A stretch of DNA of 56,958 nt, taken from the NCBI GenBank assembly GCA_025352885.1, contig JANXRZ010000150.1, positions 1 to 56,958 of the forward strand, given 5' to 3'. This stretch comes from Pseudomonadota bacterium (GTDB lineage: Bacteria > Pseudomonadota > Gammaproteobacteria > Burkholderiales > SG8-39). The first letter of the stretch is position 1. Each line of letters opens with the position of its first letter. The notes under the pieces are model-generated. The model searched no databases and was not told the DNA's origin. It saw only the letters and a list, made by a program, of their open reading frames with translations. Below are positions 45,629 to 48,622 of this stretch, piece after piece. The position numbers and the translations under genes are program-made.

Positions 45629-47599
45629 ATGAAAAGCCTCTGGAACGACGCCGAAGCCGCCGAACACAAAGGGCCGCTCGGGCCGCGCGTGTACACGTCA
45701 CGCCTGCTCGGCCGCGACAAGTCGCTCGTGCTCCATGGCGGCGGCAATACGTCGGTCAAGCTCACCGAGAAAGACCTGTTCGGCCAGGACCTCGACATCC
45801 TTTACGTGAAAGGCAGCGGCTGGGATCTCGAGACCATCGAGGCACCGGGCTTTTCCCCCGTGCGGCTCGATTACATCCGGCGCCTCGCAGCCCTGCCCGC
45901 GTTGTCCGATCCGCAAATGGTCAACGAGCTTGCGACGCACATGACGCGCGCCGGTGCACCCGCGCCGTCGATCGAAACGATCCTGCACGGGATCCTGCCG
46001 GCGAAGTATGTCGACCACACGCACGCCGATGCGGTGCTCTCGGTCACGAATGCGCCCGGGGGCTTTGAGCGTGTCCGCGAAATTTATGCCGACCGGGTCG
46101 TCATCGTTCCTTACGTGATGCCGGGGTTTGACCTTGCAGCCGTTTGCGCGCGCGAGTTTCCTAAGCAGGCGACCAAGAACACCGTCGGCATGGTGCTCAT
46201 GAATCACGGCATTTTTTCGTTCGGCGAAGATGCACGGCAGGCTTACGAGCGCATGATCGCGCTGGTCGGCGAGGCGGAGACCTATCTCGACCAGCGCAAG
46301 AGCTGGTCGATGCGCTACGAAACCAAGCCTCTCGGCAGCGTCAAGCGTGAAGAGATCGCGCAACTGCGGCGTACGCTTTGCGACACAGCCGGCACGCCGA
46401 TGATCGTGACAATCCGCGATGACGAAAAGTTCCGCGCCTTCGCCCAGCATCCGAAAGTGGGGCAGGTCTCGCAGCAGGGTCCTGCCACCCCGGATCACGT
46501 CATCCGTACCAAGCCGCTTCCCATGGTCGGCCGGGATGTCGCGGCCTACGCCGCGGCCTATCGCGCCTATTTCGAGCGGAACGCCGCCAAGGCCAAGGAA
46601 AAGAAAACCATGCTGGACCCGGCGCCGCGCATGGCGCTCGATCCCGCGTTCGGTCTGGCCGCAGCGGGCCGCACCGCAAAGGACGCGGCGATCGTAGCCG
46701 AGCTTTACGACCACAGCATTGACGTCTTTCTGAGAGCCGAAGGCATCGGCGGGTGGCGCGCCCTGCCGGAAGCCAACCTGTTTGAAGTCGAGTACTGGGA
46801 TCTCGAGCAAGCGAAGCTTCGCAAGGGCGGCGCTCCGCCGGTGTTCGCCGGCGAGATCGTCATCGTCACCGGTGCCGCGTCGGGCATCGGCAAGGCCTGC
46901 GCCGAAAGTTTCCTCAAGCGCGGAGCCGCTGTCATCGGCCTTGATCGCACAGCGTCGATTACGTCGCTCCTCACGCGGCCGGATTATCTCGGCATCGAGT
47001 GCGACCTCACCGATCGCGCCGCAGTCGAAGCGGCCCTCGAGCGTGCGGTGAAGGCTTTCGGCGGCGTGGACATGCTGGTGCTGAACGCAGGCATCTTCCC
47101 GGCCTCGAACCCGATCCAGGCCATCCCGCTCGATACGTGGCACAAGACGATGGCCGTGAATGTGGAAGCCAACCTTGCGCTCATGCAGGCCTGCCACCCG
47201 CTGTTGAAGCTGGCGCCGCGTGGGGGACGCATTGTCGTCATCGGTTCGAAGAACGTGCCCGCACCGGGACCTGGGGCAGGCGCGTATTCCGCCTCCAAGG
47301 CCGCGATGAACCAGCTTGCGCGCGTGGCTGCGCTCGAATGGGGCAAGGACAACATCCGCATCAACTCGCTTCACCCCAATGCCGTGTACGACACTGCACT
47401 GTGGACAGACGAGGTGCTCGCCTCGCGTGCGAAGGCCTACAACCTTACGGTCGAGCAATACCGCACCAACAACCTGCTGAAGACGGAGGTCTCGTCCCGG
47501 GACGTCGCGGAACTGGCAGCGGAGATGTGCGGCCCTCTTTTCGCCAAGACCACGGCCGCCCAGGTGCCCGTGGACGGCGGGAACGAAAGAGTGGTCTGA
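45629..47599 (+). CDS. Bifunctional class II aldolase / short-chain dehydrogenase (RhaD-like)
   Basis: A 656-residue fusion. The N-terminal part (about 15-225) is a class II aldolase/adducin domain with the phosphate loop HGGGNTSVK and zinc histidines His130, His132 (DHTHAD) and His193 (MNHGIFSFG). A linker (about 230-400) resembles that of bifunctional rhamnulose-1-phosphate aldolases. The C-terminal SDR (408-656) has TGAASGIG, LNAG and catalytic Ser540, Tyr553 and Lys557. The aldolase should split a ketose 1-phosphate into DHAP and an aldehyde, which the dehydrogenase then converts. Direct pairing with mtnA suggests 5-methylthioribulose or 5-deoxyribulose 1-phosphate as substrate. Confidence 0.88.
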   Translation: MKSLWNDAEAAEHKGPLGPRVYTSRLLGRDKSLVLHGGGNTSVKLTEKDLFGQDLDILYVKGSGWDLETIEAPGFSPVRLDYIRRLAALPALSDPQMVNELATHMTRAGAPAPSIETILHGILPAKYVDHTHADAVLSVTNAPGGFERVREIYADRVVIVPYVMPGFDLAAVCAREFPKQATKNTVGMVLMNHGIFSFGEDARQAYERMIALVGEAETYLDQRKSWSMRYETKPLGSVKREEIAQLRRTLCDTAGTPMIVTIRDDEKFRAFAQHPKVGQVSQQGPATPDHVIRTKPLPMVGRDVAAYAAAYRAYFERNAAKAKEKKTMLDPAPRMALDPAFGLAAAGRTAKDAAIVAELYDHSIDVFLRAEGIGGWRALPEANLFEVEYWDLEQAKLRKGGAPPVFAGEIVIVTGAASGIGKACAESFLKRGAAVIGLDRTASITSLLTRPDYLGIECDLTDRAAVEAALERAVKAFGGVDMLVLNAGIFPASNPIQAIPLDTWHKTMAVNVEANLALMQACHPLLKLAPRGGRIVVIGSKNVPAPGPGAGAYSASKAAMNQLARVAALEWGKDNIRINSLHPNAVYDTALWTDEVLASRAKAYNLTVEQYRTNNLLKTEVSSRDVAELAAEMCGPLFAKTTAAQVPVDGGNERVV

Positions 47600-47602
47600 T
47601 CG

Positions 47603-48622
47603 ATGGGCTTGAACCGAACGCAGCGCCCCCAGCCTGTCGAAGCGGTGCGCTGGCTGGGCGACCGGCTGGAGTTGCTCGACCAGAGGAAGCTCCCCGATGA
47701 GACCGTCTACGTAACCTGCCGGACCGCCGCGGAGACTGCGACGGCGATCCGCGACATGGTCGTCCGCGGCGCGCCGGCGATCGGCTGCGCAGCCGCGTTC
47801 GGCATGACGATGGCCTCGAAGCGTGGCGACATCCTTTCGGACGCTGAGGCGCTGCTAGCGCAGAGCCGCCCGACCGCAGTCAATCTCTTCTGGGCGCTCG
47901 AGCGCATGCGCGGAGCGCAAGATCCGGAAGCCGCCGCGGTTGCAATCTTTACGGACGATCTCGCCTCCTGCCGCGCCATGGGTCTGCACGGCGCGACGCT
48001 GATTCCCGAAGGCGCCCGCATCATGACCCACTGCAATGCAGGCGCACTGGCGACCGCCGGTCATGGGACGGCGCTGGGCGTCATTCGCTCGGCCCGGGAC
48101 GCGGGCAAGAATGTGAGCGTCATCGCCAACGAGACGCGGCCCTACCTGCAGGGCGCGCGCCTCACCGCATGGGAGATGGTGCAGGAGAACATTCCCGTCA
48201 CGCTGATCGCCGACAACATGGCCGGCCACCTCATGAGCCGGGGCGAAGTGGATCTCGTGATCGTCGGCGCCGACCGGATCGCGGCAAACGGCGACACGGC
48301 CAACAAGATCGGCACTTACACGCTGGCTGTTCTTGCAAATCGCCATGGCCTGCCGTTCTATGTCGCCGCACCCCTCTCGACCTTCGATGCGAAGCTTGCG
48401 GACGGCTCGGGGATTCCGATTGAAGAGCGTCCGGCGGCCGAGATGACAGGCTATGGAGACAAGCGTTGGGCGCCGCAGGGCGTGAGCGTGCGCAATCCAG
48501 CATTCGACGTGACGCCCGCGGACCTCATCACGGCGATCATCACCGAGCACGGCGTCATGCGTGCCCCCGGGCGCGAAAGCATTGCACGCACGCTGGCTAT
48601 TGGCCGGTTGAGCACGCTATAA
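47603..48622 (+). CDS. mtnA: S-methyl-5-thioribose-1-phosphate isomerase
   Basis: Converts 5-methylthioribose 1-phosphate to 5-methylthioribulose 1-phosphate; the family also takes 5-deoxyribose 1-phosphate. The product has 339 residues. Catalytic Cys144 lies in MTHCNAGALAT and Asp224 in VGADRIAANGDTANKIGT, equivalent to Cys160 and Asp240 of the Bacillus enzyme. It also has the early RGAPAIG. It starts 3 bp after the aldolase-SDR stop, so they are co-transcribed. No mtnB, mtnC or mtnD is nearby. Confidence 0.95.
   Translation: MGLNRTQRPQPVEAVRWLGDRLELLDQRKLPDETVYVTCRTAAETATAIRDMVVRGAPAIGCAAAFGMTMASKRGDILSDAEALLAQSRPTAVNLFWALERMRGAQDPEAAAVAIFTDDLASCRAMGLHGATLIPEGARIMTHCNAGALATAGHGTALGVIRSARDAGKNVSVIANETRPYLQGARLTAWEMVQENIPVTLIADNMAGHLMSRGEVDLVIVGADRIAANGDTANKIGTYTLAVLANRHGLPFYVAAPLSTFDAKLADGSGIPIEERPAAEMTGYGDKRWAPQGVSVRNPAFDVTPADLITAIITEHGVMRAPGRESIARTLAIGRLSTL

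Follow-up and report, generated by a model that had tools for sequence, protein, structure and literature searches.

The window, a contig of 56,958 nucleotides from a Pseudomonadota bacterium of the order Burkholderiales (JANXRZ010000150.1, assembly GCA_025352885.1), carries on its forward strand a gene in which a class II aldolase is fused to a short-chain dehydrogenase/reductase (SDR), followed directly by mtnA. Together the two likely convert the sugar that remains after S-adenosylmethionine use to an ordinary metabolite, and the fusion would render the toxic aldehyde by-product harmless on the same chain. The genome appears betaproteobacterial, going by its nearest named relatives (L029 and L030). 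The initial annotation had described the aldolase, an SDR with a Ser-Tyr-Lys site, mtnA after 3 bp and both catalytic residues of MtnA, and this description was confirmed by the open reading frames (ORFs), the Pfam domains and the residues: the TGA of the fusion ends at 47599 and the ATG of mtnA starts at 47603. Residues were compared in an alignment of 109 sequences, comprising 93 full-length fusions (the window included), 13 proteins of a sister clade with a decayed or lost SDR, 2 proteins of the RhaEW type (rhamnulose-1-phosphate aldolase/lactaldehyde dehydrogenase) and a related fusion from the cyanobacterium G314. Left out were fragments or sequences with internal stops (G029, G078, G082 and G129), G079 and L097 (internal stop), and loci with matches spanning fewer than 590 residues. 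The features are as follows.

45629-47599, + strand: aldolase-SDR fusion ORF, 656 aa (family PRK08324.2-4, NF006196)
45692-46288, + strand: class II aldolase core, residues 22-220 (Pfam PF00596; Foldseek match 3m4r)
45974-45976, + strand: Glu116, predicted catalytic acid/base (Glu in 93/93 full-length fusions, 13/13 SDR-decayed proteins and G314; Asp in 2/2 RhaEW)
46016-46024, + strand: His130-x-His132, predicted metal ligands (identical in 109/109 aligned)
46205-46207, + strand: His193, predicted third metal ligand (identical in 109/109 aligned)
46850-47587, + strand: SDR domain, residues 408-653 (approximate)
46868-46891, + strand: nucleotide-binding motif TGAASGIG, residues 414-421 (T414, G415, G419 and G421 in 93/93 full-length fusions)
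47246-47299, + strand: SDR catalytic Ser540, Tyr553 and Lys557 (present in 93/93 full-length relatives)
47603-48622, + strand: mtnA, S-methyl-5-thioribose-1-phosphate isomerase, 339 aa (TIGR00512; PDB relatives 1t9k and 2yrf)
48032-48034, + strand: MtnA Cys144, predicted catalytic (aligned with 2yrf)
48272-48274, + strand: MtnA Asp224, predicted catalytic (aligned with 2yrf)

Domains of the fusion protein and MtnA

Pfam placed Aldolase_II (PF00596) at residues 22-220 (E 7.8e-23) and adh_short at residues 410-593 (E 6.9e-45). Among the best 25 of 222 NCBIfam matches, the top-scoring models were the PRK08324 fusion models, and the model for the "bifunctional aldolase/short-chain dehydrogenase", NF006196, was passed with 1052 bits against a cut-off of 831. 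NF006196 describes a fusion family without an assigned substrate; the earlier statement that the closest named relatives are rhamnulose-phosphate aldolases therefore did not hold.

The AlphaFold2 model of the fusion, built from a 35-row alignment, had a mean predicted local distance difference test score of 92.0 and a predicted template modeling (TM) score of 0.89. By Foldseek the aldolase half matched 3m4r of Thermoplasma acidophilum, annotated as uncharacterized, with a TM score of 0.93 on the target and 40% identity. Among solved structures, this archaeal class II aldolase domain was also the nearest to the aldolase half (166 bits, 40% identity). Apart from 3m4r, the best 50 matches listed per fold search were almost solely SDRs, aligned to residues 403-656, and structures of FucA, RhaD and DrdA were not among the best 50 listed in either search.

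Within the SDR, Asp439, which we take to be an NAD-type residue, was conserved in 93/93 full-length relatives. D289, W390, K396 and L397 were kept in all 93 full-length fusions (R293 in 91) and in both RhaEW-type proteins; as a guess, these five residues might contact the SDR. In the aldolase half G37-G38-G39-N40 was invariant across the 109 sequences. Passages of PMC3870299 state that the catalytic Glu117 of RhaD is replaced by Asp in RhaE, and the window fusion, with Glu116, therefore carries the RhaD-type acid.

The downstream protein scored 421 bits on the MtnA model TIGR00512 (cut-off 279). Its Cys144 and Asp224 are identical to the residues at the aligned places of 2yrf, which we take to be the Bacillus subtilis MtnA structure with these counterparts catalytic. 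A single place in the window genome matched the aldolase half, and a single mtnA was found. No promoter was found in a scan of 45100-48900.

Linkage to mtnA and gene content in the order

A search with the aldolase half across 150 genomes of the window's order gave matches at E <= 1e-15 in 35, of which G069, a 53-residue fragment, was set aside, leaving 34 aldolase genomes for further searches. With 12 of the 115 genomes lacking an aldolase match, these made a follow-up set of 46. The 12 fusion-free genomes were searched for mtnA, MtnB, MtnC, MtnD, MtnP and RhaI, and the deaminase search covered the 34 aldolase genomes. By identity to the window, 16 of the 34 were close (the window itself, 100%, and 15 others at 58-66%), 16 stood at 37-50% and 2 at 32-33%. 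All 32 genomes of the first two groups, the orthologue genomes, had mtnA, and neither of the 2 at 32-33% did. A same-strand mtnA lay directly behind the aldolase gene, or in a short run behind it, in 29 of the 32 orthologue genomes, which represent 17 families of the order; because of this spread the pairing goes beyond chance.

The survey for co-occurrence of the fusion with mtnA in the absence of mtnBCD, proposed with the initial annotation, gave the expected picture. MtnD was found in 0/46 genomes, MtnB (TIGR03328) passed its cut-off in 0/46, and MtnC was found in 2/46. In the window genome neither MtnD nor MtnC was matched, and MtnB did not pass its cut-off; the sole TIGR03328 match at E <= 1e-8, on contig C3, was below it.

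Three genomes (G036, G122 and G056) carried a single-strand run in the order fusion-mtnP-apt-mtnA, with mtnP above the cut-offs of NF006492 and TIGR01694 and apt above those of NF002634 and TIGR01090. A single run would thereby encode phosphorolysis, adenine recycling, isomerisation and cleavage, and it is predicted to be a complete route from 5′-deoxynucleosides. By gene content, 31/32 orthologue genomes had a match to the 5′-methylthioadenosine (MTA)/methylthioinosine (MTI) phosphorylase family and 27/32 an NF006549 deaminase over the cut-off. An NF006549-type deaminase had no match in 5 of the 34 aldolase genomes; G122 and G056 are among those five, which fits an MTA-phosphorylase route replacing the deaminase route. 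G036 and G056 each have a second phosphorylase-family gene outside the fusion run, and G122 has only the in-run copy.

In the window genome a gene on contig C163 scored 678 bits on NF006549 (cut-off 540), and its best PDB relative was 4f0r, a 5-methylthioadenosine/S-adenosylhomocysteine deaminase (500 bits). A phosphorylase on contig C96 passed the methylthioinosine phosphorylase model NF006599 (375 bits, cut-off 223), and remained below TIGR01694 (261 bits, cut-off 275). The ORF in front of it, judged by eye, reads like a hypoxanthine phosphoribosyltransferase gene (hpt). A deaminase-first route is known in Pseudomonas aeruginosa, and an MtiP acts on 5′-deoxyinosine too, according to passages of PMC6302742.

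Within the window itself, 5.8 kb from mtnA, an amidohydrolase of the TRZ/ATZ/deoxyadenosine-deaminase kind (54455-55840, - strand) was below every NCBIfam cut-off among the matches listed (PRK06151 best, 237 bits against 416) and scored 205 bits on the 5′-deoxyadenosine deaminase model (cut-off 522). The downstream neighbor of mtnA is an L,D-transpeptidase-type ORF on the opposite strand. Further downstream, 49895-51571 (+ strand) encodes an ATP-dependent DNA ligase in which Pfam finds all three domains (NF002868, 714 bits, cut-off 641).

Proposed pathway and observations against it

The first step of the proposed pathway would convert MTA or 5′-deoxyadenosine to the corresponding ribose 1-phosphate. 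In the window genome it would proceed by way of the MTA-deaminase-like gene of C163 and the methylthioinosine-phosphorylase-like gene beside the hpt-like ORF of C96, and in the three relatives by way of the in-run MTA phosphorylase and adenine phosphoribosyltransferase. MtnA, judging from its family, would isomerise this to the corresponding ribulose 1-phosphate. The aldolase domain, with a metal at H130/H132/H193 and E116 as the acid, would then cleave 5-methylthioribulose 1-phosphate and 5-deoxyribulose 1-phosphate to dihydroxyacetone phosphate (DHAP) and an aldehyde, a step suggested by the near-constant linkage to mtnA and by the conserved residues. With NAD+, the SDR would oxidise acetaldehyde and 2-(methylthio)acetaldehyde to acetate and (methylthio)acetate, respectively. 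This last is the weakest step, and the direction of the redox reaction is the least certain part of the proposal. The oxidation is modeled on the RhaEW of Chloroflexus, which in passages of PMC3870299 oxidised lactaldehyde with NAD+ and had no activity with NADH.

It is likely that the fusion would act as the lower half of the DHAP shunt, cleaving the products of MtnA to DHAP and an aldehyde that the SDR would oxidise with NAD+, and the fusion is probably a fused version of that shunt hidden by the family's current name. The fuller proposal is put forward tentatively: an oxidative DHAP shunt, in which a fused enzyme related to RhaEW may yield DHAP and (methylthio)acetate or acetate without release of the aldehyde, as a widespread partner of MtnA in Betaproteobacteria, one clade having lost the dehydrogenase and kept the pathway. 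The initial annotation had spoken of a possible one-protein DHAP shunt; the aldolase and the SDR are indeed on one chain, but MtnA and the phosphorylase step are still needed.

Several observations, set out in this and the following paragraphs, weigh against the proposed pathway. In three orthologue genomes mtnA was not linked to the aldolase gene, being on another contig in G002 and 48 kb away in G089, with the aldolase gene at a contig end in G078. G082, counted as adjacent, has an in-frame stop in both genes of its assembly. The Glu/Asp contrast at position 116 rests on two RhaEW sequences here and on a statement in the passages of PMC3870299. mtnA was also present in 5 of the 12 fusion-free genomes examined; it therefore does not need the fusion. 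In favor of the pathway, mtnA in four of these five (G014, G015, G021 and G022) adjoins a match to class II aldolases that does not reach the MtnB cut-off; in G014 and G015 this match is a stand-alone ORF, FucA-like or related, below all cut-offs among the matches listed. No aldolase candidate was found beside mtnA in the fifth, G024. In this order mtnA thus has either the fusion or a different class II aldolase as its partner, which is what a shared catalytic step would predict.

The SDR is not constant either. Of the 16 proteins in the 37-50% group, 13 could be aligned, and they formed one clade (SH-aLRT, the approximate likelihood ratio test, 100) in a quick tree of 78 of the 109 sequences with several long end branches (G094, G314, G038, G088, G073 and G028 flagged). 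The SDR was decayed in 11 of the 13 and absent in 2. In the 11, remnants of 102-170 residues follow the aldolase, with G419, N486, G488, Ser540 and Tyr553 all missing at the aligned places; the other two, G088 (393 aa) and G094 (405 aa), stop right after the aldolase. Across the clade T414, G415, G419 and G421 were kept in 3, 2, 0 and 1 of 13 proteins, Ser540, Tyr553 and Lys557 in 0, 0 and 1, D289, R293 and W390 in none, and K396 and L397 in 1 each. None of the 10 sister-clade proteins tested with Pfam passed the SDR cut-off (best 23.5 bits, cut-off 27).

Nevertheless, 12 of the 13 SDR-decayed or SDR-lost proteins still adjoin mtnA, the exception being G089. Since open reading frames of this kind occur in seven families, the decay is not one assembly error, and since the SDR was decayed or lost while mtnA was kept adjacent, there is no need for the aldehyde to be oxidised on the aldolase chain. 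On these sequences, the conserved core consists of the aldolase and MtnA, to which the dehydrogenase is an optional addition, lost at least once. The earlier suggestion that the SDR handles the aldehyde on the same polypeptide needs correcting to the extent that such handling is not essential to the pathway. The aldolase-only gene of G088 lies in a TANGO2-GNAT-aldolase-mtnA order, the same as in the window (TANGO2 and GNAT judged by eye). Upstream of the window fusion, 44392-45701 holds the TANGO2-family ORF and the opposite-strand GNAT ORF; a TANGO2-type ORF took the same upstream position in 9 of 80 fetched loci besides the window.

With the aldolase role unchanged, the SDR could instead reduce the aldehyde with NADH to ethanol or 2-(methylthio)ethanol, which is considered rather unlikely. 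Among the matches listed, the folds most similar to the SDR domain were mostly alcohol/keto SDRs, as such a reaction would have it, but Asp439, kept in 93/93 relatives and presumably of NAD type, speaks against it. Passages of PMC5893883 propose a separate alcohol dehydrogenase for this reduction in Rhodospirillum and Rhodopseudomonas and describe 2-(methylthio)ethanol, not the aldehyde, in R. palustris; against this, RhaEW oxidises its aldehyde with NAD+ and showed no activity with NADH (PMC3870299, in passages).

Beyond the order, the analysis took the best 80 of 228 relatives, all named loci, and searched the genomes of 34 of them for mtn genes; adjacency was counted only where at least 2.6 kb of downstream sequence was available. 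mtnA was near the fusion in 8/9 Betaproteobacteria and 2/2 Pseudomonadota without a class, in 0/21 Gammaproteobacteria, 1/24 Cyanobacteriota (on the opposite strand), 0/1 Muproteobacteria, 0/1 Magnetococcia, 0/1 Spartobacteria and 0/2 loci without lineage. The conserved linkage to mtnA that had been anticipated is therefore upheld for Betaproteobacteria and fails in the gammaproteobacterial and cyanobacterial loci. The 34 searched genomes had mtnA in 31, MtnD in 9 and MtnC in 9.

A GDPD-like gene and one for a GlpD-like oxidoreductase lie close to the fusion in eight gammaproteobacterial loci, joined in five by a glycerol-kinase-like gene, and among the genomes of L050, L054, L057 and L058 three of four have both MtnC and MtnD. 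The glycerol-phosphate-type genes are upstream of the fusion in L050, L054, L055 and L097 and downstream in L057, L058, L080 and L084; L054 (3492-7933) adds a 2-hydroxyacid dehydrogenase, and its GlpD- and GlpK-like proteins are below the curated cut-offs. These loci, together with the gammaproteobacterial count of 0/21, would suit a broadly acting DHAP-dependent aldolase that mainly uses another substrate, MtnA being a regular neighbor in Betaproteobacteria only. This is judged unlikely: linkage to mtnA is nearly fixed across 17 families of the window's order, and the cyanobacterium G314 has a related fusion (NF006192) together with mtnA and an opposite-strand mtnP inside 5.7 kb.

Of 146 cyanobacteria, 14 carried the fusion, 137 mtnA and 25 MtnD. 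MtnD was present in 5/14 fusion carriers vs 20/132 others, a further point on the adverse side. An anticorrelation between fusion and MtnD was tested and not found, and the cyanobacterial fusion as the missing 5′-deoxyadenosine route was rejected; with fusion and MtnD together in 5 cyanobacteria, the fusion as an MtnD replacement there is not supported. A Rid-family gene lies on the same strand upstream of the fusion in 13 cyanobacterial loci (L098, 6088-6480: TIGR00004, 161 bits, cut-off 106).

Comparison with known systems

RhaEW, also YuxG, has the identical two-domain architecture and is the only characterised member found (PMC3870299, in passages), which would make the fusion a rhamnulose-1-phosphate aldolase/lactaldehyde dehydrogenase with an incidental mtnA neighborhood. 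The two proteins agree in domain order, approximate length, an intact SDR motif and the metal histidines, at about 30% identity. The fusion remained below the cut-offs of the rhamnulose-specific models (TIGR02632, 433 bits against 568; NF006189, 421 against 634), both of which were passed by the true RhaEW-type fusions of G055 and G102. Unlike the fusion, these two have a RhaI-family gene on the same strand behind them (0.4 kb in G055, 0.2 kb in G102; 419 and 425 bits, below the model cut-off of 531) and a catalytic Asp at position 116, and genome searches found no mtnA in either genome. The other 44 genomes had no RhaI match at E <= 1e-10, the 32 orthologue carriers included, RhaA-type isomerases not being searched; the rhamnose cluster that the initial annotation had named as contrary evidence was thus not seen at this level. 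With mtnA adjacent in 29/32, Glu instead of Asp and a separate clade in the tree, a rhamnulose aldolase identity was rejected and is considered very improbable.

An MtnB-type dehydratase feeding methionine salvage, suggested by the membership of MtnB in the same class II aldolase superfamily (PMC6302742, in passages), is the least probable reading of all and was rejected, as the downstream enzymes are missing (MtnD 0/46, MtnC 2/46).

The DHAP shunt, in which MtnP or MtnN and MtnK precede MtnA and Ald2, has been reported for Rhodospirillum rubrum, Rhodopseudomonas palustris and Escherichia coli ATCC 25922 (passages of PMC5893883, PMC10986504 and PMC12632272). Like the window pair it joins MtnA to a class II aldolase, likely with the same substrates and DHAP as a product; unlike the fused window aldolase, Ald2 as described in those passages stands alone and passes the aldehyde to a separate alcohol dehydrogenase. 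The window aldolase scores on a larger, fused branch of class II aldolases, and its comparison with Ald2 and DrdA is one of published descriptions. The active-site comparison that had been suggested was run against RhaEW-type proteins (Glu116 vs Asp).

The fluorometabolite route of Streptomyces cattleya uses a fluoroacetaldehyde dehydrogenase to oxidise the aldehyde, on separate proteins and in secondary metabolism. It shares the logic of isomerase and aldol cleavage (PMC6079011 and PMC6302742, in passages). The DrdA-DrdI-DrdK system of Bacillus thuringiensis likewise couples an isomerase to a class II aldolase with a catalytic Glu and yields DHAP and acetaldehyde, but passages of PMC6079011 describe a stand-alone FucA-like aldolase and a kinase and no dehydrogenase domain. 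The DHAP shunt, 5-deoxyribose salvage and RhaEW are accordingly known already (PMC5893883, PMC10986504, PMC12632272, PMC6079011, PMC8102628 and PMC3870299, in passages). No fused aldolase-SDR linked to mtnA was found in the titles, abstracts and passages of the open-licence PMC papers listed; PMC7895386, judged by its passages, is unrelated.

The role of the fusion would be hidden by a family name without a substrate and by an architecture close to that of a rhamnose-named family. The fusion family offers a concrete candidate for many Betaproteobacteria without MtnD, and its loci with an intact, decayed or deleted dehydrogenase would constitute a natural experiment on the benefit of dealing with the aldehyde within one protein.

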